NCBI RefSeq assembly: GCF_002355275.1
Contig: NZ_CP023451.1
Coordinates: 124,001-188,000, forward strand
DNA from: Rhizorhabdus dicambivorans
Lineage (GTDB): Bacteria > Pseudomonadota > Alphaproteobacteria > Sphingomonadales > Sphingomonadaceae
Reading direction: 5' to 3'
DNA length: 64,000 nt
In this document: one piece after another, positions 1 through 54,313 of the stretch
Numbering within the stretch: the first letter of the stretch is position 1
Layout: every line of letters starts with the position of its first letter
Made by a program: the position numbers and the translations under genes
Notes under the pieces: model-generated
Told to the model about the DNA's origin: nothing
Database searches by the model: none
What the model saw: only the letters and a program-made list of their open reading frames with translations

Positions 1-1326
1 GGCGCCCATCGCGCCGTGGTCCATGCCGGCCATCGATCCATGATCCATCCCCGAATGATCCATGCCTGCCATGGCGCTATTGTCCATGGTCGCCATCGCT
101 GCCGCCGCGCCGGTCGCGAGGCGCGCGGACGCGTTCTTCTCGGCCGTCGGATCGACGCCCCGCATAGCGCCGCCCGACATGTCCATGCCTTCCATGCCCG
201 GCATCGAGGACATGTCCATGCCCATGTCCTTCATGTCGGCGAGCGGCCGTTTGCGTAAGGGGGGAACCTCGCCGGCCATGCCGGCCCTCGGCGCGAGCGT
301 GGCACGCGCCATGCCCGAGCGGTCGATCGCCTCGCCGACAAGGGTGTAGGCCTTGTCATCGCCTGGGCTGACAACGACGTCGTAGGTCTCGGCAACACCA
401 ATCTGGAACTCGTCGACGGTGACCGGCACCACATTCTGCCCGTCGGCCTGGACGATGGTCAGCGGCAGGCCGGGGATGCGGACGTTGAAGGTGGTCATCG
501 CCGACGCATTGATGACCCGCAGCCGCACCCGTTCGCCCGGGGTGAAGAGCGCGGTCCAGTTGTCCATCGGACCATGGCCATTGACGAGATAGGTGTAGGT
601 GGATCCGGTCACATCGGAGATGTCGGCCGGGTCCATCCGCATCTGGCCCCAGTCGAGCCGGTCTTTGAGCGGCTGATCCTTGCCCGACAGGAGCCCGGCC
701 AGGGTCTGGCGCTGGAAATTGAAATGGCCGGGGTTGGCCTTGAGGCGCCGGAAGATCGCCTGCGGCGAGAGCGCGCTGTGATCGGCGAGCACGATGACAT
801 GCTCGCGGTCATAGGCGACCGGATCGGCACCGGCGGGATCGATGATGATCGGGCCGTAATGGCCTTCCTGTTCCTGCAGGCCTGAATGGCTGTGGTACCA
901 GTAGGTGCCGCTTTGCACGACGGAGAACTGGTAGAGGTAGTTCGAGCCCGGCTTGATGCCCGGAAAAGACACGCCCGGCACACCGTCCATATTGGCCGGC
1001 AGGATCAGCCCGTGCCAGTGGATCGAGCTGTCCTCCTCCAGCTGATTGATGACGTTGAGCCGCACGCGCTGGCCCTCGCGCAGCCGGATCAGCGGGGCGG
1101 GGACCGTGCCGTTGAGGCCGATTGCCCGGAACTTGCGCCCGTCGATGGTCATCGACTGCCGGGCGATGGTGAGCGTGATGTCTTCGCCCGACACGGTCGG
1201 CAGCGTCGGTCGCATCCCCGGCGAGATCGTCTGCGCCCAGGCCGGCAGCCAGGCTGACAAGGCGGCGCCGCCGCCGGCGAGGGCCGCGCCGCGGAGGAAC
1301 TGGCGGCGGTCGAGAGCAGAAATCAT
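1..1326 (-). CDS. copA: Multicopper oxidase CopA, copper-resistance type (3' end outside window)
   Basis: Periplasmic multicopper oxidase of the PcoA/CopA type, expected to oxidise or sequester copper. The ATG complement is at 1326 and the frame is open to base 1 (442 codons, C-terminus missing). The N-terminus is a twin-arginine signal (LDRRQFLRG, then an Ala/Gly-rich segment ending AWAQT). Cupredoxin copper motifs IHWHG and YWYHSHSG are visible about 95-140 residues in. Towards the window start the frame becomes Met/His-rich with repeated MDHS, MDHG and GMDM blocks, the spacer typical of CopA. It lies 66 bp downstream of the ECF sigma gene on the same strand and has its own copy of the shared promoter motif at 1368-1393. 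Confidence 0.93.
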   Translation of the reverse strand, partial: MISALDRRQFLRGAALAGGGAALSAWLPAWAQTISPGMRPTLPTVSGEDITLTIARQSMTIDGRKFRAIGLNGTVPAPLIRLREGQRVRLNVINQLEEDSSIHWHGLILPANMDGVPGVSFPGIKPGSNYLYQFSVVQSGTYWYHSHSGLQEQEGHYGPIIIDPAGADPVAYDREHVIVLADHSALSPQAIFRRLKANPGHFNFQRQTLAGLLSGKDQPLKDRLDWGQMRMDPADISDVTGSTYTYLVNGHGPMDNWTALFTPGERVRLRVINASAMTTFNVRIPGLPLTIVQADGQNVVPVTVDEFQIGVAETYDVVVSPGDDKAYTLVGEAIDRSGMARATLAPRAGMAGEVPPLRKRPLADMKDMGMDMSSMPGMEGMDMSGGAMRGVDPTAEKNASARLATGAAAAMATMDNSAMAGMDHSGMDHGSMAGMDHGAMGA

Positions 1327-1367: not shown

Positions 1368-1393
1368 AATACGCAGCGTGGCCTCATCCCCCT
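1368..1393 (-). promoter_or_regulatory. ECF-type promoter of copA (AGGG-N13-CTGCGTATT)
   Basis: Read on the minus strand, AGGG (1393-1390) is followed by exactly 13 bases and CTGCGTATT (1376-1368), about 40 bp before the copA start. The same pattern with the same spacing occurs before cnrY and copC. It overlaps the stop codon of the sigma gene, so copA can be transcribed independently of the upstream trio. Assignment to the adjacent sigma factor is inference from the repeated pattern. Confidence 0.7.
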
Positions 1394-1959
1394 CAAACTT
1401 TCTTCAACATTTCCGCGAGGCGTGCGCGGGCGCGGTAGAGGCGGGTCTCGACTGCCTTCTGGCTGATGCCGAGAATCTCGGCGGTTTCGGCTTCCGATTT
1501 CTCATCGATCGTCCGCAAGACGAGCGTGTCCTTGAGCGATGCGGGCAGGGCGGCGATCGCTTTCATGGCCTCTGCCAGCTGCTGCTCGGCGCCGATCGCC
1601 TGGTCGGGTAGTGGCGCCTCGTCGACGACATGTTCGGCTTCCCCCAGCGCCAGCGCGTGGGAGAAGAAGTTGCGGACCGCGCGGCGGCGGCGCCAGTCAT
1701 GGCATTTGTTGATGACGATCCGCGACATCCAGACCGGAAAAGGTCGCGCAGCGTCATAGCGGTTGAGTGCGGCGAAGGCGGCGACGAAGCTCGCCTGGGT
1801 CACGTCGAGCGCTTCGTCGCGGTTCCCGACATGGCTGCGCACGAGGCGGTGCACCCAGCCCTGATGCCGGCGGACCAGCTCGCCATAGGCCGCTTGCCGG
1901 CCTCCAAGCGCCAGAGCCGCGAGCTCCCCGTCCGAGCAGTCGGGGAGGCACGCGGTCAT
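1393..1959 (-). CDS. ECF RNA polymerase sigma factor, CnrH-like
   Basis: Extracytoplasmic-function sigma factor of 188 residues. Region 2 is visible around residues 25-95 (GELVRRHQGWVHRLVRSHV, then DVTQASFVAAFAAL and PFPVWMSRIVIN), and region 4 around 125-185, with an HTH (ETAEILGISQKAVETRLYRARARLAE). It overlaps the sensor gene upstream by 4 bp, and the order anti-sigma, sensor, sigma matches cnrYXH/nccYXH of Cupriavidus. It is therefore expected to be held by the membrane anti-sigma at 2393-2665 and released when the periplasmic sensor binds metal. Its likely targets are the three AGGG-N13-CTGCGTATT promoters here. The family is clear; the exact inducing metal is not. Confidence 0.9.
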   Translation of the reverse strand: MTACLPDCSDGELAALALGGRQAAYGELVRRHQGWVHRLVRSHVGNRDEALDVTQASFVAAFAALNRYDAARPFPVWMSRIVINKCHDWRRRRAVRNFFSHALALGEAEHVVDEAPLPDQAIGAEQQLAEAMKAIAALPASLKDTLVLRTIDEKSEAETAEILGISQKAVETRLYRARARLAEMLKKV

Positions 1960-2396
1960 TTGGACTTGGCCGTCAGCGCTTTCACCACGGCGTCGTCGAA
2001 CTTGTCCGTCTGATCCGGGCGCAGCACGGCCCGCATCGCGAAGATATGCTCGAGTGTTTCCTTCTGCAGCGCGCCCATCGCCTGGTGCGAGCGATCCACC
2101 GCCCCTGCAACCCGAGGACCATAGCCATGCTCCGCCTCGATCGCCTCGGCGAGCCGCGCGTTATCGGCGCGCAGTTCGGCCTCCAGTGCCTGTCGCCGGA
2201 TCGCATAGTTCTTCTCGATCGTCTCGAGACGGCTATGTTGCGCGGTGTCCAGCTTCAGATCGCGATGGAGCAGGTCGTGCAACTCATTTTCGACCGGGCG
2301 CACCGGAACCACATAGACGCGGCCGATGACCACACCGGCGATCGCCGCGGCAAAGGTCAGCAGGACGAGGAGCAGGAGCCGGCGGTCGCGCATCAT
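1956..2396 (-). CDS. Membrane-anchored periplasmic metal sensor, CnrX-like
   Basis: A 146-residue protein with an N-terminal membrane anchor (about residues 6-30) and a helical periplasmic domain of the CnrX/heavy-metal-resistance family. His40, His44, Glu61, His117 and Met121 are present. Their spacing equals that of the published CnrX metal ligands (His42, His46, Glu63, His119, Met123) with a constant offset of two, so the whole Ni/Co coordination set appears kept. It overlaps the anti-sigma gene upstream and the sigma gene downstream by 4 bp each, consistent with a translationally coupled signalling unit. Its placement beside copper genes suggests copper as the physiological signal, but the site itself is that of a Ni/Co sensor. 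Confidence 0.85.
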   Translation of the reverse strand: MMRDRRLLLLVLLTFAAAIAGVVIGRVYVVPVRPVENELHDLLHRDLKLDTAQHSRLETIEKNYAIRRQALEAELRADNARLAEAIEAEHGYGPRVAGAVDRSHQAMGALQKETLEHIFAMRAVLRPDQTDKFDDAVVKALTAKSK

Positions 2397-2665
2397 TGTG
2401 AACTCAGCAGCGTCGAAGGAGCGAGCGCGAGCCGCGCGTCAAAGGGCGATATCGGCCCGGCTTCGGTCGACCGCACAGGCACGGCCGAGCCGGCAATTCC
2501 CAGGAACAAGGCTGCTGCCGCGGCGATACCGAATGTCGTGGCGCTCAGGCGGGGCATGGCCTGGAGCCGGGCGATCTCGGCCATGACGCGGCTGTCCAGC
2601 CCGGCAAGCCGGGGATCGAGCGGCGCTTCCCGCAACCGGCTGAGCATGTCGTCGAGGTGGTCCAT
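2393..2665 (-). CDS. Membrane anti-sigma factor, CnrY-like
   Basis: A 90-residue protein with a short cytoplasmic N-terminus (MDHLDDMLSRLREAPLD), one membrane segment (about residues 44-62) and a periplasmic tail. This topology and its position as first gene before a CnrX-like sensor and an ECF sigma factor fit the CnrY/NccY anti-sigma family, which binds sigma through a short hydrophobic N-terminal helix. Sequence conservation in this family is low, so the call rests mainly on topology and gene order. The start at 2665 lies 25 bp downstream of the promoter motif at 2690-2715. Confidence 0.75.
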   Translation of the reverse strand: MDHLDDMLSRLREAPLDPRLAGLDSRVMAEIARLQAMPRLSATTFGIAAAAALFLGIAGSAVPVRSTEAGPISPFDARLALAPSTLLSSQ

Positions 2666-2689
2666 GATGTTTCTCCGTCTTCACTTCTC

Positions 2690-2715
2690 AATACGCAGGA
2701 TGGTCCGGCAACCCT
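2690..2715 (-). promoter_or_regulatory. ECF-type promoter of the cnrYXH-like operon (AGGG-N13-CTGCGTATT)
   Basis: On the minus strand AGGG (2715-2712), 13 bases, then CTGCGTATT (2698-2690), about 25 bp before the anti-sigma start. It matches the motif before copC and copA base for base in both boxes, and would make the sigma factor autoregulatory. Confidence 0.7.
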
Positions 2716-2741
2716 TGTCCGGGAACAAAAAGAAAATTGCG

Positions 2742-2767
2742 AGGGGTGCAGGTCGCGGCTGCGTATT
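2742..2767 (+). promoter_or_regulatory. ECF-type promoter of copC (AGGG-N13-CTGCGTATT)
   Basis: AGGG at 2742-2745, 13 bases, CTGCGTATT at 2759-2767, 30 bp before the copC start. It is the divergent partner of the motif at 2690-2715, so one sigma factor would drive both directions from this intergenic region. Confidence 0.7.
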
Positions 2768-2797: not shown

Positions 2798-3175
2798 ATG
2801 CGCTTCTTTTCGCCGCTCGCAGCCATCGCCGCCGTCGGCCTGAGTGTTTCGGCTCCGGCCTACGCCCATCCCAAGCTCGTGTCCTCGACGCCCGCCGCCA
2901 ACGCCAGCGTCCCGGCGCCGTCGCGTATAACGCTCACCTTCAGTGAAGGTCTGATGCCGAAGCTGTCGGGCGCCGAGATCGTGATGACCGGCATGCCCGG
3001 CATGCCCAACCACCGCATGGCGGTAACCGGCTTCAAGACGTCCGTCGAAGGCGACAAGACGCTCGTGCTGACGCTCGCCAAGCCGCTCATGGCGGGCAGC
3101 TATCAGGTCGCCTGGCACGTCGTCTCGACCGACACGCACCGCATCCAGGGCAATCTCGCCTTTACCGTCAAGTGA
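2798..3175 (+). CDS. copC: Periplasmic copper-binding protein CopC
   Basis: A 125-residue CopC-domain protein that carries copper in the periplasm and is thought to work with CopD. A signal peptide ends AYA and leaves a mature N-terminal His (HPKLVSSTPA), the first ligand of the CopC Cu(II) site. The DTH of STDTHRIQG near the C-terminus supplies the Asp/His pair. A Met-rich loop (MTGMPGMPNHRM) resembles the Cu(I) site of some CopC proteins. A Shine-Dalgarno AGGAG lies just before the ATG. copD follows after 4 bp and is probably co-transcribed from the ECF-type promoter at 2742-2767. Confidence 0.95.
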   Translation: MRFFSPLAAIAAVGLSVSAPAYAHPKLVSSTPAANASVPAPSRITLTFSEGLMPKLSGAEIVMTGMPGMPNHRMAVTGFKTSVEGDKTLVLTLAKPLMAGSYQVAWHVVSTDTHRIQGNLAFTVK

Positions 3176-3179
3176 CGCC

Positions 3180-4124
3180 ATGAACGACGTGGCACTCGTC
3201 GCCGTCCGCTGGGCGCTCTACGTCGATCTCGGCCTGTTGTTCGGCCTGCCGCTGTTCGCGCTCTATGCGCCCGGCGGCGGCCGGATGGTACAGCGGCATC
3301 TGCCGATGGTAGCAATGGTGGCCGGTCTCGCCTGTCTCGCCCTCCTGCTGTCGGCGCTGGGGTTCGCGTTGCAGGCAGCGGCCATGACCGGGCTGCCGCT
3401 CACCCAGCCTGATCTTTCCATGGTCGCAGAGCTGTTCAACGGCACGTCCATGGGAACGGCGCTGAAGGCGCGCCTCGTCGCGCTCCTCGTTCTTCTGCTC
3501 TCCATCCCCTTCTATCGCCGGCAATCCCGTCCTGCCTTCATCGCCTCCACTCTGGCAGGCGCGGTCGCACTCGCGACCCTCGCCTGGAGTGGGCATGGCG
3601 CGGCTGGCGAAGGCGAGGCGGGCTGGCTGCAACTGGGGGCCGATCTCATCCATCTGCTCGCCGCCGGCGCCTGGGTCGGCGCGCTTGCCGCATTCCTCGC
3701 GCTGGTACTTCCCAGGCTCGCAACCGACGATCTCGCCGCTCAAGACATGGACCGGGTCACGCTCGCCGAGGAAGCGTTGCGGGGCTTCTCCCTCGTCGGC
3801 ACGATCATCGTCGCCCTGCTGATCCTGACCGGGACGGTGAACGGCTGGTTCCTCGTCGGTCCGGGCAACATCGCCTCGCTCGGGCAGTCGACCTACGGCC
3901 TGCTGCTCATCGCCAAGCTGCTGCTGTTCGCCGGCATGCTGGGCCTGGCCGCGCTCAACCGTTATCGCCTGACCCCGGCACTTGCGCAGGCGATCGAGGA
4001 AGAGGACGCGCCACGGGCGCAGGCGCTGCTGCGCGCGAGCCTCGTCGTCGAAGGCGGTCTTGCGATCGTCATTCTCGGGCTCGTCGCCTGGCTGGGGACA
4101 CTATCGCCGCCCATGTCGATGTAG
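3180..4124 (+). CDS. copD: Copper-resistance inner-membrane protein CopD
   Basis: A 314-residue polytopic membrane protein with about eight hydrophobic segments, matching the CopD/PcoD family that pairs with CopC for copper transfer across the inner membrane. Conserved-looking stretches include the N-terminal VRWALYVDLGLLFGLPLF and a C-terminal segment LLLIAKLLLFAGMLGLAALNRYRLTP, typical of the CopD domain. It starts 4 bp after copC. The ATG at 3180 gives full family length. Confidence 0.93.
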   Translation: MNDVALVAVRWALYVDLGLLFGLPLFALYAPGGGRMVQRHLPMVAMVAGLACLALLLSALGFALQAAAMTGLPLTQPDLSMVAELFNGTSMGTALKARLVALLVLLLSIPFYRRQSRPAFIASTLAGAVALATLAWSGHGAAGEGEAGWLQLGADLIHLLAAGAWVGALAAFLALVLPRLATDDLAAQDMDRVTLAEEALRGFSLVGTIIVALLILTGTVNGWFLVGPGNIASLGQSTYGLLLIAKLLLFAGMLGLAALNRYRLTPALAQAIEEEDAPRAQALLRASLVVEGGLAIVILGLVAWLGTLSPPMSM

Positions 4125-4886: not shown

Positions 4887-4917
4887 TTGACCCTGACACG
4901 GTGTCAGACCCTAGATC
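4887..4917 (+). promoter_or_regulatory. MerR/CueR-type promoter-operator of the copper ATPase
   Basis: A -35 box TTGACC (4887-4892) and a -10 box TAGATC (4912-4917) are separated by 19 bp, the over-long spacer characteristic of MerR-family promoters. The spacer holds a perfect inverted repeat CTGACAC-G-GTGTCAG (4893-4907), the expected dimer site. The likely regulator is the CueR-type protein encoded directly after the ATPase. Confidence 0.8.
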
Positions 4918-4942: not shown

Positions 4943-7300
4943 ATGAACGAGACACATGGAGCGGCGCATGGCGGCGGTTGCTGCGGCAGCCACGGCGCTG
5001 CGAAACCAGCGGCTGGCGTCAAGGACCCGGTCTGCGGCATGACCGTCGATCCTGCGATCACTGCGCACCATGCCGAGCATGGCGGTGAAAGCTATCATTT
5101 CTGCAGCGCGGGCTGCCGGGCAAAATTCATCGCCGATCCCGAGCGCTATCTCGGCCCGCCGGCACCGCCAGTCGCGGTGCCAGAAGGCACGATCTGGACC
5201 TGCCCTATGCATCCCGAGATTCGGCAGGACCATCCCGGGTCCTGTCCGATCTGCGGCATGGCGCTCGAGCCCGCGACCGTGACTGCCGACAGCGGCCCCA
5301 GCCATGAGCTGGTCGATTTCACACGGCGCTTCCGGGTCGGCCTGATGCTGGCCCTCCCGGTGCTGATCCTCGAGATGGGCGCGCATCTCTTTCCCGCGAT
5401 CCATCGCCTCGTGCCGATGTCGATCTCGGTATGGATCCAGTTCGTGCTGGCGACACCCGTCGTGCTCTGGGCGGGCTGGCCCTTCTTCGAGCGTGGCTGG
5501 GCCTCGCTCAAGACCCGCAACCTCAACATGTTCACCCTGATCGCGATGGGGACCGGGGTCGCCTGGATCTACAGCGTCGTCGCGACGCTCGCGCCCCAGC
5601 TGTTCCCGCCCGCCTTCCGCGGAGAGGACGGCATGGTTGCCGTCTATTTCGAGGCGGCCGCGGTGATCACTGTCCTCGTGCTGCTCGGCCAGATGCTCGA
5701 ACTGCGCGCGCGCGAGCGGACCTCGGGCGCGATCAAGGCGCTGCTTAACCTTGCGCCAAAGACCGCGCGCCGGATCGGTTCCGATGGCAGTGAAGAGGAA
5801 ATCAGCCTCGATCTCGTTGCGGTCGGCGACCGCCTGCGTGTGCGTCCCGGCGAGAAGGTGCCGGTCGATGGCGTGGTCGAGGACGGCCGTTCCTCGCTCG
5901 ACGAGTCGATGGTCACCGGTGAGTCCATGCCCGTCACCAAGGCCAAGGCCGACACGGTGATCGGCGGCACGCTCAACCAGACCGGCGCGCTCGTTATCGT
6001 CGCCGACAAGGTTGGCCGGGACACCATGCTGGCGCGCATCGTCCAGATGGTCGCCGAGGCGCAGCGCTCGCGCGCGCCGATCCAGCGCATGGCCGATCAG
6101 GTGTCGGGCTGGTTCGTGCCCGTGGTCATCGCGGTCGCGGTGGTCGCGTTCATCGCCTGGGGCATCTGGGGCCCCGAGCCGCGCTTCGCCTACGGGCTGG
6201 TTGCGGCGGTCGCCGTGCTGATCATCGCCTGTCCCTGCGCACTGGGTCTCGCCACGCCGATGTCGATCATGGTCGGGGTTGGCCGCGGCGCCGGGCTCGG
6301 CGTCCTCATCAAGAATGCCGAAGCGCTCGAGCATATGGAAAAAGTCGACACGCTCGTCGTCGACAAGACCGGCACGCTGACCGAAGGCCGGCCTGCCGTC
6401 ACCCAGATCGTGCCGGCGCCCGGCTTCGACGAAGCCGAACTGCTGCGGCTTGCCGCCTCGGTCGAGCGGGCCTCCGAGCATCCGCTCGCGCTGGCGATCG
6501 TCGAGGCCGCCAAGGATCGCGGCATCCCCACGAGCGACGTCACCGACTTCGATTCCCCCACCGGACGCGGCGCGCTCGGCACCGTCGACGGCCGCCGGAT
6601 CGTGCTCGGTAATGCGCGGTTCCTCTCGGAAGAGGGCATAGCAACCGACGCGCTGGCGGAGCAGGCCGACGCCCTGCGCCGGGATGGCGCCACCGCGATC
6701 TTCATCGGCGTCGACGGCACCGTCGGCGGCGCCTTTGCAATCGCCGATCCCGTGAAGCAGACGACGCCGGAGGCCCTGGCCGCACTCAAGGCCGAAGGCA
6801 TTCGCGTGGTGATGTTGACCGGCGACAACCGCACCACAGCAGAGGCGGTGGCAAGGCGGCTCGGCATTGACGATGTCGAAGCCGAGGTACTGCCCGACCA
6901 GAAGAGTGCCGTCGTCGCGCGGTTGAAAAGCGAGGGGCGCGTGGTGGCGATGGCCGGCGACGGGGTCAACGACGCCCCCGCACTGGCTGCCGCCGATGTC
7001 GGTATTGCCATGGGCTCGGGCACCGACGTCGCGATCGAGAGCGCGGGCGTGACGCTGCTCAAGGGCGATCTCATGGGCATCGTGCGGGCACGGCGGCTGA
7101 GCCAGGCGACCATGTCCAACATCCGCCAGAACCTGGTCTTCGCCTTCATCTACAATGTCGCCGGGGTGCCGGTGGCGGCGGGCGCGCTCTATCCGCTGTT
7201 CGGCATCCTGCTCTCGCCGATCATCGCGGCCGCCGCCATGGCGCTCTCCTCGGTCAGCGTGGTCACCAACGCGCTGCGCCTCAACCGGAAAGCGCTGTGA
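4943..7300 (+). CDS. copA: Copper-translocating P1B-type ATPase
   Basis: Cu(I) (or Ag) export ATPase of 785 residues in the inner membrane. In order: a His/Cys-rich N-terminus (GGGCCGSHG), a YHS metal-binding domain ([10 protein letters not shown]), a [20 protein letters not shown] heavy-metal-binding segment, transmembrane helices, the actuator domain with VTGES, the CPC membrane motif ([13 protein letters not shown]), the phosphorylation site DKTGTLTEG, the SEHPLA nucleotide-domain motif, and the hinge [10 protein letters not shown]. The frame is open from 4835, but the ATG at 4943 is preceded by AGGAG and starts the His/Cys-rich leader, so it is chosen. The promoter at 4887-4917 and the CueR gene that overlaps its stop indicate copper-induced expression. 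Confidence 0.95.
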
Positions 7301-7695
7301 ACATCGGGGAGGCGTCGAAGCAAAGCGGGGTCTCGGAGCGGATGATCCGCCATTATGAGAAGATCGGCCTCATCCCGGCGCCGCCGCGCCGGGGAGCGGG
7401 TTATCGCGACTATGGCGAGAGTGACCTCCATCGCCTGCGGTTCATCGCCAATGCCCGCGATCTCGGTTTTCCGATCGAGGAGATCCGGACCCTGCTCGGC
7501 CTGTGGGCCGACACGGGCCGCAGCAGCGCCGATGTAAAGCGGGTCGCGTTGGCGCGGGCGGAGGAATTGCAGCGCAAGGCCGAAGCGCTGACGACCCTGC
7601 GCGAGACCCTCGTCGATCTCGCCGAGCGCTGTCATGGCGACGAGCGGCCAGATTGTCCCATCATCGCCGAACTGAGTCTCGACAGAAAATGTTAG
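7297..7695 (+). CDS. cueR: CueR-type MerR-family copper-responsive regulator
   Basis: A 132-residue MerR-family activator. The winged HTH is at the N-terminus ([21 protein letters not shown]), followed by a dimerisation helix and a C-terminal metal loop with Cys112 and Cys120 ([10 protein letters not shown]). Ser77 precedes the long helix. Cys112, Cys120 and Ser77 have exactly the numbering of E. coli CueR, which marks sensors of monovalent Cu, Ag and Au. The GTG start at 7297 overlaps the ATPase stop by 4 bp. It most likely controls the promoter at 4887-4917 and therefore its own operon. Confidence 0.93.
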
Positions 7696-22307: not shown

Positions 22308-22928
22308 CTACAGCGGCCTTCCCATTCCAGCCGCAAAGGCGATCCGCAAGGTTTCGGCAAGGGTACGGACTCCAAGCTTGGACATGATGCTCGCGCGATG
22401 GACTTCGACCGTCCGTGAAGAAATGCCCAGATCATAGGCGATGGTCTTGTTCGGAAGGCCTTGCGCAAGGCCTTCGAGAACATCCCGTTCGCGCGGTGTC
22501 AGTAGATCGACCTGTCGGCATGCCTCGGCTTCTTCGAGAGCGCGCCCCTCGGCCGTGTCGATGCGCGCGAACGCTCGGTCTATCGCATCGAGCAGCAGCG
22601 CCCGTTCGATAGGTTTGGCCAGGAAATCGACAGCACCCGCCTTCATCGCTTGGACAGCAAGCGCAATGTCTCCGTTGCCGGTCAGCATCACGACTGGCAT
22701 GCTTATATCCATCTGCGTCAGCGCTGCCTGAACCTGTAGACCGTTCATGTCCGGCATGTGCATGTCGAGAACGATGCTACCTCTTTCAGCTTCATCTGCA
22801 ATTTTCAGAAAGTCGACTCCCGAGCCATAGGTCTCGACGGCAAATCCCGCTGTCCTTAATGTGAATCCTACAGCTTTCCTGATTGTTTCTTCGTCATCAA
22901 TGACATGAACGACGCGCTTGCTCTCCAT
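22308..22928 (-). CDS. FixJ-family response regulator (orphan)
   Basis: A 206-residue two-component regulator. The receiver domain (about 1-120) has the acidic pocket IDDEE, the phospho-acceptor Asp55 (IVLDMHMPDMNG), the Thr switch (VMLTGNG) and the conserved Lys (FLAKPIE). The C-terminal LuxR-type HTH is LTPRERDVLEGLAQGLPNKT followed by SSRTVEVHRASIMSKLGV. Overall architecture equals FixJ/StyR/TodT. No histidine kinase is present in the window. A palindrome GGACCATGGTCC lies 74 bp before its start. It may control the surrounding storage/energy genes; that is inference from position. Confidence 0.92.
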   Translation of the reverse strand: MESKRVVHVIDDEETIRKAVGFTLRTAGFAVETYGSGVDFLKIADEAERGSIVLDMHMPDMNGLQVQAALTQMDISMPVVMLTGNGDIALAVQAMKAGAVDFLAKPIERALLLDAIDRAFARIDTAEGRALEEAEACRQVDLLTPRERDVLEGLAQGLPNKTIAYDLGISSRTVEVHRASIMSKLGVRTLAETLRIAFAAGMGRPL

Positions 22929-27764: not shown

Positions 27765-28016
27765 GAACTCTGGCCTGCCTCTCACGCTTATTGTCCTTAG
27801 CGCAGCATTGGTGGACGACCAGCGCACGCCTATACGCAAAAGCCGCAGAATGACGGCCGCGTCATGACCACTGCGTAACGCCGATAGGGATGGTGAGGTT
27901 TGTGAACCAGCCGGCATCGCCTTCTTGGGCGAATGACGGACTTCGGTCTCTACTTATACCTTGCTCCCGGGACTCGGATCTATGCTCGCAAGACATTGGC
28001 GAGAGAAGAGCGGCAT

Positions 28017-28286
28017 ATGGACGGGCATGACCATCGCATGCGCAAGCGTGGAAAGATCGTTTTGATCGGCTTCCTGCTAGTCGCGGGCTTTTTCCTCATC
28101 ACCGAGCACACCGCACATTTCCTGGGTGTGTTGCCCTATCTGATCCTGCTCGCCTGTCCGCTCATGCACCTGTTCATGCATCACGGTCATGGCGGCCATC
28201 AGCATGGCCATGACCAGATGCCGGGTGCTGTCCCGACCGGACTGCCTGCGAATTCGAACGAGCGCGTGGAAGGGGGGCCGCGATGA
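28017..28286 (+). CDS. DUF2933-type small His-rich membrane protein
   Basis: An 89-residue protein with a basic His-containing N-terminus (MDGHDHRMRKRGK), two adjoining hydrophobic segments (IVLIGFLLVAGFFLITEH and LGVLPYLILLACPLMHLFMH) and a His-rich stretch (HHGHGGHQHGHD). This is the pattern of DUF2933 proteins, which are common in copper and other metal-resistance islands, but no activity is known. The ATG at 28017 is used instead of an upstream in-frame ATG because it starts the conserved leader. It overlaps the next gene by 4 bp. Confidence 0.75.
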   Translation: MDGHDHRMRKRGKIVLIGFLLVAGFFLITEHTAHFLGVLPYLILLACPLMHLFMHHGHGGHQHGHDQMPGAVPTGLPANSNERVEGGPR

Positions 28287-29011
28287 CGCATACCGATTAT
28301 GGCTATGGTCTTTGGGGGCTGGCGCTGGTCAACGCCTCCGTGTTCATCCTATTCGCGTACAGCTTCTTCAAACCCGCCACCGGGCGCGACTGGCGCAGCT
28401 TCGGCGCATTCAGCGCATTCATCGTTGCACTCTTCGCCGAAATGTATGGCTTCCCGCTCACCATCTTCTTGCTCTCGGGTTGGCTCCAGTCGCATTTCCC
28501 CGGCCTCGACTGGTGGAGCCACGATGCCGGCCATCTGCTCGAGATGATGTTCGGCTGGAGGGTCAACCCACATTTTGGCCCGTTCCATCTTGCCAGCTTC
28601 GTGCTGATCGGCGCGGGCTTCTGGCTGATCTCGGCCGGATGGGCGCCGCTTCACGCAGCCCAGCGCGTTCACAAGCCCGCAACGACGGGAATCTATGCCA
28701 AGGTTCGCCATCCGCAATATATCGGGTTCATCCTCGTGATGCTCGGATTTCTGCTGCAATGGCCGACGTTACTGACGCTCGCCATGTTTCCGGTGTTGGT
28801 GGTGATGTATATTCGCCTTGCCCGGCATGAGGAGAAGGCGGCGCTCGCGGAATTTGGCCAGGCATATCGTGCGTATATGGACCGCGTACCCGCCTTTGTT
28901 CCGCGGCTACGTGGTCGGTCGGCTCGTTTCTCCGACTCCAACCCCGCTCGGGGGGAGGCGGCAGGTAAGGCGATGAGGCCCGAAGAGCAAGCTCCGCCGC
29001 GCCGAGGCTGA
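28283..29011 (+). CDS. Isoprenylcysteine methyltransferase-like membrane protein
   Basis: A 242-residue polytopic membrane protein of the ICMT/PEMT-like family. Near residues 130-170 is the family signature GIYAKVRHPQYIGFILVMLGF, followed by a loop RLARHEEKAALAEFGQAYRAYMDRVPAFVP typical of the SAM-binding C-terminus. These proteins are frequent next to DUF2933 genes and metal transporters; the methyl acceptor in bacteria is mostly unknown. The last about 30 residues are low-complexity and may be a poorly conserved extension. Confidence 0.85.
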   Translation: MTHTDYGYGLWGLALVNASVFILFAYSFFKPATGRDWRSFGAFSAFIVALFAEMYGFPLTIFLLSGWLQSHFPGLDWWSHDAGHLLEMMFGWRVNPHFGPFHLASFVLIGAGFWLISAGWAPLHAAQRVHKPATTGIYAKVRHPQYIGFILVMLGFLLQWPTLLTLAMFPVLVVMYIRLARHEEKAALAEFGQAYRAYMDRVPAFVPRLRGRSARFSDSNPARGEAAGKAMRPEEQAPPRRG

Positions 29012-29423
29012 GGGGTTGGACGCTTCGCCGCGTATTATATTCGAACGGTGACGCACGCATCAGGCGCGTTGCACTGCGGTACTTTGATTTGTCGGGAGTA
29101 GCTTCACTTGATTTGGCGGATCGCGTGACATGAAATCCGTCGTGGTGCCCCAGAGTCGTCCCTCATCGGACCTTCGCGCATCGGCAAATCGTGATGTCAA
29201 AAAGCGCCTTCCCTCATCTGCTCTTCACTGGGACGAAGACGTACCAAGGCAGTGGTGGTCACAAGTTCGGCCGCTCGCCGCCGCCGTTCGCGCACGCCCT
29301 CCGCAATTGTCCATGAGCGGGTCGGCGACCCTCCAAGCACCGCCAAGCCGGGCCCGACGGAACCGCGAACGGCGTAGCTGACTCAGTCCGGCCGTGCGCC
29401 TTTTAGGGTGAGAAAGTAACTGG
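29012..29423. other. Intergenic stretch without supported gene
   Basis: About 410 bases between the ICMT-like gene and the HxlR regulator. A plus-strand frame at 29130-29381 (83 codons) has Arg/Ser/Pro-rich composition and no ribosome site, so I do not call it. Two TTGATTTG-type direct matches (near 29083 and 29108) are visible but do not form an FNR palindrome. Confidence 0.6.
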
Positions 29424-29765
29424 ATGTGCATCGAGTCAGAAAGACAGCTTTTTCAAGCGATAGACCCTGCGGCGGCCGACGCGATATTCCATACATTGAG
29501 TGCCCGATGGGTGTTGCACATCCTGGTAGCCCTGAGCAAAGACGAGCTGCGATTTACATCCATTCGTCGAGCCATACCGAAAATCAGCGCTAATGTGCTC
29601 ACGGTCCGCCTACGGGAATTGGAAGGCGTATCTCTGGTCTCGCGAATGATGTCGCCACCGCCTGAATCCTATCAACTCTATGGCTTGGGGCCATTGGCGC
29701 ATGGTTTGAGACCTGCGCTCCAACATCTGGAGCAATGGAGGACTAAGCTCAGCTTACTCGAATGA
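29424..29765 (+). CDS. HxlR-family transcriptional regulator
   Basis: A 113-residue winged-helix regulator. The HxlR pattern is clear: DAIFHTLSARWVLHILVALSKDELRFTSIRRAIPKISANVLTVRLRELE followed by the wing SLVSRMMSPPPESYQLYGLGPLAHGLRPALQHLEQW. These dimeric regulators respond to redox state, aldehydes or unknown ligands. There is no conserved HxlR N-terminal Cys-Pro motif; a single Cys is at position 2. No adjacent divergent target gene is evident. Confidence 0.85.
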   Translation: MCIESERQLFQAIDPAAADAIFHTLSARWVLHILVALSKDELRFTSIRRAIPKISANVLTVRLRELEGVSLVSRMMSPPPESYQLYGLGPLAHGLRPALQHLEQWRTKLSLLE

Positions 29766-29789
29766 AATGCAGCGTTTTAGGTCGATGCT

Positions 29790-30260
29790 TTATCGTCGAC
29801 TGCGTTGAGACCACTCAACAGTGGATTTCCTGCTCCCCCGTGGTTGGCCCCTCGGCAGGAGAACAGCCGCGATCTCATCGTAGCTGATCGGGTGGACACG
29901 GTCGCTCGTGCGGAAACGCGCGATGTCCAACGTGTCGTCGCCGAACGTCACAGCAATCGAGTTTATGAGATAGGCTCGCTCCCGGGAGTAGGGCAGCATC
30001 CAGATCACTCGTTTTGTCGCGATATTTTGGCGTAGTCTGGTCAGTTTGAGCGTTAGCTGTCGGCTCGGCTGATCGTTGGATCCGACGGCGAGGACGGTGG
30101 TGCCATATAGCCTGGCGGGTTTACGCCACGCCAGTATCTGGTCGATGGTAGCGCCTGCCTCGACCACCGAATCGCACCCACTGGCGTATCGGTTATTGAT
30201 CGCTCCCGACAGTCCGACGCCAATGCTGTCACCGATAACAAGGCACGCGAACATGCACAT
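29790..30260 (-). CDS. SGNH/GDSL hydrolase-like small protein
   Basis: A 156-residue protein with the Ser-nucleophile block LVIGDSIGVGL near the N-terminus, a VLAVGSNDQP block (SGNH block III-like, with Gly and Asn) and a C-terminal Asp-x-x-His (SDRVHPISYDEIA). The frame is open to 30386, but the ATG at 30260 or 30254 is the natural start, leaving a short hydrophobic leader before the GDS motif. Such small GDSL proteins are frequent in plasmids and islands of sphingomonads and rhizobia; the substrate is unknown. Before the IS66 insertion it lay directly downstream of the interrupted gene. Confidence 0.65.
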   Translation of the reverse strand: MCMFACLVIGDSIGVGLSGAINNRYASGCDSVVEAGATIDQILAWRKPARLYGTTVLAVGSNDQPSRQLTLKLTRLRQNIATKRVIWMLPYSRERAYLINSIAVTFGDDTLDIARFRTSDRVHPISYDEIAAVLLPRGQPRGSRKSTVEWSQRSRR

Positions 30261-30324
30261 CCTCGTGTAGAGAGGCGACTGAGATTGCCGGACGGTACAG
30301 AACTTGGAACCAACTCGGCCTTGC

Positions 30325-30378
30325 TTAGTCTTCCATTGCCATAACGTGTGCAGCAAGCGCCGACACGTCGGCATGGCC
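30325..30378 (-). pseudogene. 3' remnant of the gene split by IS66
   Basis: On the minus strand these bases read HADVSALAAHVMAMED and stop (TAA at 30325-30327). Joined across the target duplication to the frame at 33203-33480, they restore an uninterrupted 107-residue protein. It has no start of its own and is a separated tail. Confidence 0.8.
30371..30378. repeat. IS66 target-site duplication, left copy
   Basis: GCATGGCC directly abuts the left end of the element and recurs directly after its right end (33203-33210). Eight bases is the IS66 family standard. Confidence 0.9.
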
Positions 30379-30394
30379 GTATGCATCCGGCGAG
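30379..30394. repeat. IS66 left terminal inverted repeat
   Basis: GTATGCATCCGGCGAG, matching the complement of the right end at 14 of 16 positions. Confidence 0.9.
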
Positions 30395-30462
30395 ACGCGC
30401 CTTGTCGTGAGGTAGGGGCCTGCTCTTAAGAACGCTCTCGAGAGCACGCTTAGGAGCAGTGG

Positions 30463-52859: not shown

Positions 52860-54313
52860 TGACACAGGCAAAAAAGGGCGTCCTGCGCCGGAAGTTCGGC
52901 TCTGGTCTGGCGTTAATCGCAGCTTCCCATTTCGCGATCGTCGGCGTCGCGCACGCTGATGTCGCGTCTGAGATGAACGGCTTCTTCAACGATGCCGGTG
53001 GCGCCGCAAATGTCACCGGGCCGACGGCATTCCAGGGTCAGTCCGCGGGCTATTACTCGCTTGGCAACGTGTGGACCCGCTTTCCGCAGAAGAGCGTCTC
53101 GCCGTTCAATCTGCAGCTTCCGAGCGCGCGGGCGGGCTGCGGCGGCATCGACCTGTTCGCAGGCAGCTTCTCCTTCATCAACGCCTCGGAAATCGTGGCG
53201 ATGTTGAAGGCGACCGCCAACAATGCCCTTGGTTTCGCCTTCAAGCTCGCGATCGATTCCGTTTCGCCAGAGATCGGGAAGGTAATGGATGAGTTCAGCC
53301 AGAAGGCGCAGCTTCTCAACCAGATGAATATATCGAGCTGCGAGACGGCGCAGGCGCTGGTCGGTGGAATCTGGCCGCAGATGGAAACCACCCGCTCGAC
53401 GATCTGCGAGGCGGTCGGCAACAGCCAGGGCATATTCTCCGATTGGGCCGCTTCACGGCAAGGCTGCAACAACGGCAACCGCCGGGACAGCACAATCGCT
53501 GGCAATACCGATGCGAGCATGAAGGACCAGCTCGTCGGCGAGCCACACAACTACACTTGGGAGGCGCTGAAGAAGTCCGCCAAATTCGGGGCGTTCGACC
53601 AGTCATTCTCCGAATATATCATGACGCTCGTCGGCACGGTGATCACCACGCCATCAACCGATCCGAGCGTAGGCGGGAAGGTCATCATGTTCGGGCCCGC
53701 CGAGGAGGCGGTGGTTACGGCGCTGCTCGACGGCACGGCGAACGCACCGGCGGTGAAGATGCTCAAGTGCAACGACACGGATTGCTACGATGTCGGTGAG
53801 CAGACCCTGACGGTGCCGGCCTCGTCGGCGTTGCGGCCGCGGATCGCAGGGATGATCCGCTCGATGAGCAGCAAGATCAGGACGGACACCGCGCTCGACG
53901 GTTCGGAGAAGCAGCTCCTCAACCTCGCGACCGTACCGCTCTACAAGATCCTGTCAGTCCAGGCCTATGCGCATTACGCGCTGACCGACGGCGAAATCGA
54001 AACGCTCTCAGAGATCGTCGCAGTCGATCTGCTGGCCGCGATGCTCGATAACATGCTCGATCGCGTCGAGCAGGCGCAGACTCACTATCAGACGTTCGAC
54101 CAGGCCACCGCGACGCAGTGGAAACAGCAAATCGCTGCGACGCGGCAGAAATTCGCGCAGCGTGACGTGAAGCTCTCCAACAAGCTGCAGGTGACGATGC
54201 AGATCATCGATCGCAGCATCATGCTCGAATCCACGCTCCAGAATTCGATGACGCCGGGCATGGCGTCCGCGCTCAATTTCTCGCGCGGGTTGAACGCACA
54301 AGGGCTGAATTAG
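52859..54313 (+). CDS. traH: T4SS protein TraH
   Basis: A 484-residue exported protein with the TraH signatures: MNGFFNDAGGAANVTGPTAFQGQSAGYYSLGNVWTRFPQKSV, GCGGIDLFAGSFSFINASEIVAMLKATANNALGFAFKLAID, and a C-terminal coiled coil. The frame is open one codon earlier at a TTG, but the ATG at 52859 makes the usual TGATG coupling with traF. Confidence 0.95.
   Translation: MTQAKKGVLRRKFGSGLALIAASHFAIVGVAHADVASEMNGFFNDAGGAANVTGPTAFQGQSAGYYSLGNVWTRFPQKSVSPFNLQLPSARAGCGGIDLFAGSFSFINASEIVAMLKATANNALGFAFKLAIDSVSPEIGKVMDEFSQKAQLLNQMNISSCETAQALVGGIWPQMETTRSTICEAVGNSQGIFSDWAASRQGCNNGNRRDSTIAGNTDASMKDQLVGEPHNYTWEALKKSAKFGAFDQSFSEYIMTLVGTVITTPSTDPSVGGKVIMFGPAEEAVVTALLDGTANAPAVKMLKCNDTDCYDVGEQTLTVPASSALRPRIAGMIRSMSSKIRTDTALDGSEKQLLNLATVPLYKILSVQAYAHYALTDGEIETLSEIVAVDLLAAMLDNMLDRVEQAQTHYQTFDQATATQWKQQIAATRQKFAQRDVKLSNKLQVTMQIIDRSIMLESTLQNSMTPGMASALNFSRGLNAQGLN

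Follow-up and report, generated by a model that had tools for sequence, protein, structure and literature searches.

Sequence comparison suggests that in Rhizorhabdus dicambivorans copper-protection genes are switched on by a CnrYXH-like system, a type familiar from nickel sensing. Within the 64-kb stretch of DNA that was analysed (the window), the locus is very probably a CnrYXH-type ECF sigma circuit that regulates itself and serves periplasmic copper handling. This reading is based on promoter-like elements, on their spacing, their restriction to operon starts and their tracking of the sigma gene, and on the homology of the sigma factor and of the sensor X; the anti-sigma role of Y, the release by metal and copper as the signal are parts that we infer. 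At low metal, the membrane protein Y would hold the sigma factor; binding of metal, most likely copper, by the periplasmic X would loosen Y and release sigma, which together with RNA polymerase would start transcription ahead of copA(B), copCD and the Y-X-sigma operon, from promoters of the form tGAGGG-N15-GCGTA. Scattered genes may also be started by the same factor, for example that of a DUF411 protein about 36 kb away.

The sigma gene (1393..1959, minus strand) codes for a CnrH-like ECF factor of 188 aa, with the Pfam domains Sigma70_r2 and Sigma70_r4_2, whose closest solved relative is CnrH (PDB 4cxf, E 1.4e-29); the protein ends just past region 4 (Sigma70_r4_2 covers residues 130-181 of 188), and a Cys-rich tail is absent. 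X (1956..2396, minus strand, 146 aa) is a CnrX/NccX-like periplasmic metal sensor, matching Metal_resist at 1.1e-23, and its closest solved relatives are NccX (PDB 4clv, 1.2e-18) and then CnrX (4.1e-18). Y (2393..2665, minus strand, 90 aa) is presumed to be a one-helix membrane anti-sigma factor: its place and size are those of CnrY, its middle is hydrophobic and a C-terminal LAPSTLL motif gives it the same kind of LL end. The name cnrY, used in the initial annotation, is positional only, as profile comparison finds no similarity to CnrY (hhalign against a two-sequence CnrY profile gave a probability of 4.5%, at which similarity is not detectable), and an NCBIfam search of Y returned no match; it is position and size that suggest the anti-sigma role.

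The gene of the periplasmic multicopper oxidase CopA (1..1326, minus strand; TIGR01480, E 1.4e-168) runs out of the window, and in the organism's own genome the order past the window start is the end of copA, copB, DUF305, a PAS-domain protein and two response regulators, the last three genes being found at L143:11957-14591. An additional response regulator-like match lies at 22317-22928 of the window. On the plus strand, copC (2798..3175; NF033814, 9.8e-39) and copD (3180..4124; NF033808, 7.6e-85) are followed by a methyltransferase gene, named from the relative L017, and by a copper P1B-type ATPase with a YHS domain (4943..7300, start set as in an annotated relative) and cueR (7297..7695; TIGR02044, 2.9e-46, above cutoff). 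Before the ATPase lies an element at 4887..4917 (plus strand; TTGACC-N19-TAGATC, the 19-bp spacer containing a dyad), which, from general knowledge of the MerR family, we take to be a MerR/CueR-type promoter element. Because of it the ATPase looks CueR-controlled in the window, where cueR itself begins at 7297, in line with the proposal that CueR acts on this gene in parallel to the sigma factor; in some other lineages the ECF motif precedes the ATPase too, and in some relatives the gene is probably under ECF control. The sigma protein is 100% identical on the Sphingobium amiense plasmid NZ_AP018666.1 and on a Novosphingobium capsulatum plasmid, and positions 27900-30400 of the window are 100% identical to NZ_AP018666.1 over 2501 bases; these identities thus point to shared plasmid DNA.

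The pattern AGGG-N13-CTGCGTATT, which had been placed before copA, Y and copC, is present there with zero mismatches, at 1368-1393 and 2690-2715 on the minus strand and at 2742-2767 on the plus strand. Three predicted ECF-type promoters are delimited by it: that of copA (1368..1395, minus strand; TGAGGG-N15-GCGTATT), defined by the window scan and by the family footprint; that of the Y-X-sigma operon (2690..2717, minus strand; CAAGGG-N15-GCGTATT), which would provide auto-regulation; and, divergent to the latter, that of copC-copD (2740..2767, plus strand; CGAGGG-N15-GCGTATT). From the end of the motif to the start codon there are 41 bp for copA, 24 bp for Y and 30 bp for copC. When up to two mismatches were allowed, a test that does not bear on the exact copies, the window contained 4 matches with 1.06 expected, and 3 of 100 shuffles reached 4. 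The copA promoter shares bases with the sigma gene: the TGA at which that gene stops (1393-1395) also opens the TGAGGG box, an exact overlap found in 32 of 82 family copA promoters (in a set including the best 80 of 507 loci).

The arrangement resembles that of CnrYXH of Cupriavidus metallidurans (cnrYXHCBAT, on pMOL28) in the order Y-X-sigma followed by a target operon, in the conservation of the CnrX ligands and in the AGGG/CGTA elements ahead of both Y and the gene that follows sigma; identity is 39% for the sigma factor and 35% for the sensor. It differs in the targets, which are copA, copB, copC and copD here and an RND Ni/Co pump in cnr, in the divergent third promoter, in the residues H106/M109 of the sensor, in a Y that is not detectably similar, and in the spacing, N16 here and N17 in cnr (where the G run also allows GGGG-N16). 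NccX belongs to NccYXH, a system named for nickel-cobalt-cadmium resistance, which presumably controls a pump as well.

When the phylum was searched with the sensor profile, 17 of 398 genomes gave a match. Ten stretches around hits outside the family were inspected: in nine the sensor and sigma genes lie next to copA and the element is AGGG-N16-CGTA or AGGG-N17-CGTA, and the tenth (L175) is a Cnr-type RND locus with N17; the same wiring occurs in two further families of the class. The sigma tree has two branches, one of the three Cnr-type proteins (92/78) and one of the 39 that are copper-linked (92/83); its root is unsure because the outgroup is a 107-aa fragment on a very long branch. Spacing was considered as a mark of nickel or copper loci and rejected: the three Cnr-type loci have N17, but so have the copper-linked L139 and L170, the Y promoter of L169 and, by eye, the copA promoter of L100.

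Which metal the sensor reads is the point on which the most serious alternative turns. The circuit could be as proposed and the sensor could mainly read nickel or cobalt, or several divalent metals, the cop genes being part of a general periplasmic metal response; this we regard as unlikely, though worth keeping in mind. Residues H42, H46, E63 and H119, which we take to be metal ligands of CnrX, are kept in 85/85 family sensors (a set including the best 80 of 507 loci), and M123 in 84/85, as a nickel/cobalt sensor would have them. A role of Met123 in the metal site of CnrX is described in passages of PMC7689651. Furthermore, nickel raises the expression of copA, copB and copC in Sphingobium sp. 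ba1, according to passages of PMC5557971, so nickel or mixed sensing has to be counted as possible; this induction fits either a broad sensor or another regulator. Against this reading, the targets across lineages are largely copper genes, and no Ni/Co efflux genes were seen directly behind the motif in the copper-linked loci, a few of which (e.g., L138 and L169) have RND pump genes of unassigned substrate nearby. The sensor itself also carries a distinctive pair: H106 and M109 (CnrX numbering; H104 and M107 in the X of the window) are invariant in the same 85 sensors, and in a second, overlapping set they are found in 39/39 copper-linked sensors, while the three nickel/cobalt-linked ones lack them and have Glu and Ala (3/3). 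Departures at the old site also occur among copper-linked sensors, L174 being without H42 and M123 and L077 without M123. This pattern (39/39 vs 0/3) makes H106/M109, a putative metal-binding pair, candidate determinants of copper specificity. Since the targets are copper genes, copper is most likely the inducing metal. We put forward tentatively, as somewhat less than an even bet, the broader view that Alphaproteobacteria contain a large copper-sensing CnrYXH branch, in which a second metal-binding pair, His106-x2-Met109, sets copper specificity, and that the nickel circuit of Cupriavidus is a side branch.

The wiring recurs in many relatives. A scan of genome contigs gave 507 confirmed loci, of which the best 80, nearly all from sphingomonads, were fetched. 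In these best 80 of 507, the sigma gene has copA beside it in 78/80, X in 79/80, copC in 74/80 and all three in 72/80; several of the missing neighbours fall at contig ends, and the divergent layout copDC / Y-X-sigma-copA recurs. One such sphingomonad-type cop cluster (L061) is in a record titled Arthrobacter sp. TPD3018, a title that may be wrong. Together with the window, the second cop cluster of the same genome and four plasmid relatives, the best 80 make up 86 stretches, from which upstream regions were taken for Y (84 of 85, the other being discarded for its incorrect length), copC (80) and copA (84). These contain AGGG-N16-CGTA in 75/84, 79/80 and 82/84 cases, respectively, and after removal of similar regions in 43/47, 43/44 and 46/47; other spacings from 10 to 22 gave 0-2 matches per set each, and shuffled regions 0-0.2 (one mis-cut Y region included). 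Scanned on the reverse strand, the Y regions contain the copC promoter (39/48) and the copC regions the Y promoter (43/44); the copA regions contain no match. From 132 non-redundant sites we derive the consensus tGAGGG(g/a)t-N12-(t/c)GCGTA(t/a), whose spacer is weakly conserved and whose core is tGAGGG-N15-GCGTA. The description of the motif as identical boxes with differing spacers is right for the three sites of the window, but the box had been drawn too tightly: the C of CTGCGTATT is C in 62/132 of these sites, and its last two positions are T in 84/132 and 46/132.

In the same 86 stretches AGGG-N16-CGTA is missing from 9/84 Y, 1/80 copC (L044) and 2/84 copA regions. Two of the Y regions (L023, L034) have CTTA in place of CGTA; in six others (L078, L081, L090, L091, L093, L095) about 1 kb separates copC from Y, and L078, L081 and L090 have a strict site before a gene whose L081 member is cytochrome c-like (identical sites being listed once). 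The remaining Y region is L089, and the two copA regions are L048 and L100, the latter with boxes at N17 by eye. Genes inside the operons are devoid of the element in these stretches, which include the best 80 of 507 loci: sigma 0/85, X 0/84, copD 0/79 and copB 0/81, in total 0/329 genes. With the same cut, the operon heads have it in 82/84 (copA), 79/80 (copC) and 46/55 (the Y genes found by that cut); by these counts the predicted promoter element marks operon starts only.

The abundance of the element follows the sigma gene. Among 149 family genomes, 68 were classed as sigma-bearing, since the sigma profile matched in them with an E-value of at most 1e-25; TGAGGG-N15-GCGTA has 204 matches in these, compared with 45 for the reversed control, and 35 compared with 48 in the 81 sigma-less genomes (Mann-Whitney p ~7e-20 for the abundance in the two groups, kinship ignored). 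Among the 150 matches listed, 29 are in sigma-less and 121 in sigma-bearing genomes; 95 of these 121 are at most 10 kb from a sigma gene, and 26 are not. The exact motif was found over 298 family genomes at 53 places among the matches listed, in 37 genomes, versus 7 for its reverse.

These data also bear on a second alternative, that the element is the operator of another regulator, such as a CopR-type or MerR-type protein or one encoded by the PAS-kinase/response-regulator genes nearby, which we consider very improbable. Conserved blocks ahead of copper genes can be activator sites, and both in the own genome and in L017 the genes after copB and DUF305 code for a PAS-domain protein and two response regulators. 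However, the element is not a dyad, it has a rigid spacing at promoter distance, L018, L019 and L020 carry it with no annotated kinase/regulator pair within 6 kb, and its abundance follows the sigma gene in the 149 genomes. Moreover, nearly the same element is found in pMOL28, where AGGG-N17-CGTATA precedes both cnrY and cnrC: CGTA ends at 53277 and 54651, in each case 9 bp ahead of the transcription starts given in passages of PMC9045368 (53286 and 54660), which tie cnrYp and cnrCp to CnrH and also name an RpoD promoter before cnrY. The footprint, the sigma tracking, the CnrH/CnrX-like pair and the likeness to pMOL28 all favour the initial proposal that copA, copC(D) and Y-X-sigma would be under ECF promoters.

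The genome of R. dicambivorans (5.54 Mb, 5 contigs) contains a second cop cluster on contig C2, besides the one on the contig of the window (C3). AGGG-N13-CTGCGTATT occurs in it in five exact copies, all in the two cop clusters (three in the window and two on C2), a confinement that counts for the CnrYXH-type circuit; with at most one mismatch there are 7 places (5 exact), six of them in the two cop-cluster copies, and 1 for the reversed pattern. The sigma factor of the C2 cluster is 91% identical, and its Y promoter differs at a single position, which is not part of the conserved core; at this identity the two clusters are not independent. That the three copies in the window are a recent duplication or a chance match can be practically dismissed: the 91%-identical C2 cluster, as a dependent relative, would lend it some colour, but the flanks and spacers of the three copies differ, and the family footprint, with its core kept over 132 non-redundant sites having mostly unrelated spacers and 0-0.2 matches per region set in shuffles, refutes it.

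Outside the clusters the circuit may have further targets. The looser GAGGG-N16-CGTAW has 8 matches in the own genome and 11 in the reversed control, so there is no excess by count; the 8 matches are four cop-cluster promoters, one site before a DUF411 gene, position 29009 of the window, L101 and L102. The DUF411 site (C3:89747; L142:9748-9773, plus strand) agrees with the consensus and lies 53 bp before the gene, about 36 kb from the cluster on the same 256-kb contig; the protein is presumably CopG-like. The match at 29009..29034 (plus strand, family consensus; 29011-29036 by the one-mismatch pattern) is an orphan, which overlaps the stop of a methyltransferase-like gene situated behind DUF2933 and has no convincing target, the next clear gene being an HxlR regulator about 390 bp on. 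Among the relatives listed, the DUF2933/methyltransferase DNA upstream of it is common only to about position 28,905, except for Sphingobium amiense, which is identical throughout.

In 1.16 Mb of fetched sequence, the strict pattern gave a further 79 sites (60 distinct, some being contributed more than once by near-identical loci; the copA promoters of L138 and L141 are included), compared with 6 for the reversed control, and many of them precede copper genes. DUF305, DUF411 and P-type ATPase genes also carry the element in some lineages: in the 86 stretches (including the best 80 of 507 loci) it stands before 16/18 DUF305, 14/49 P-ATPase and 5/45 DUF411 genes, the P-type ATPases behind sites being recognised by sequence and tblastn. 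Seventeen proteins were scanned with Pfam, 13 of which lie behind strict sites or, in other genomes, behind the exact motif; these are DUF305 (three), DUF411 (two), a TonB receptor, a cytochrome c, a pyridine-nucleotide oxidoreductase, CusF, DUF2231, an acyltransferase, a SnoaL-like and a sigma-like protein. A fourteenth protein behind a site (L049) had no Pfam match. With such varied families, not every target has a known copper role. Small Cys-rich proteins behind consensus sites (L049:260-595; L061 near 3414) resemble copper storage proteins. In three family genomes (L117, L119 and L121), the exact motif is 35 bp before another sigma-factor-like gene, an arrangement that is a possible sigma cascade.

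The genes copABCD are usually under two-component control, by CopRS, PcoRS or CusRS, whereas here a sigma/sensor operon is placed between copC and copA; the PAS and response-regulator genes beyond copB may act on the cluster too. ECF factors for copper genes have been described in other bacteria. CorE of Myxococcus xanthus, whose target genes include those of a multicopper oxidase and an ATPase, detects copper through a Cys-rich C-terminus of its own and has no anti-sigma factor, according to passages of PMC10141476, whereas the 188-aa factor of the window lacks such a tail and is accompanied by Y and X. SigAb of Acinetobacter baumannii is copper-responsive and has operon-encoded anti-sigma proteins and a direct regulon of sigAb, relA and an sRNA; the passages of PMC12153292 that describe it mention no CnrX-type sensor. 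In titles, opening lines of abstracts and selected passages of openly licensed PMC papers, a scope outside which the main ECF classification and the metal-ECF review fall, no CnrH-like sigma factor running cop genes in sphingomonads was found.

CnrYXH is usually discussed as a nickel/cobalt switch. The promoter is well defined, so that much of the copper regulon of sphingomonads, and of some Caulobacter relatives, would be readable from sequence, and CnrYXH-like control offers one possible explanation of why nickel, puzzlingly, induces cop genes in a Sphingobium. The H106/M109 pair would provide a natural comparison between sensors, of how one fold chooses nickel or copper; the sensor variant makes the metal choice of the circuit testable, and its wiring recurs in many relatives.
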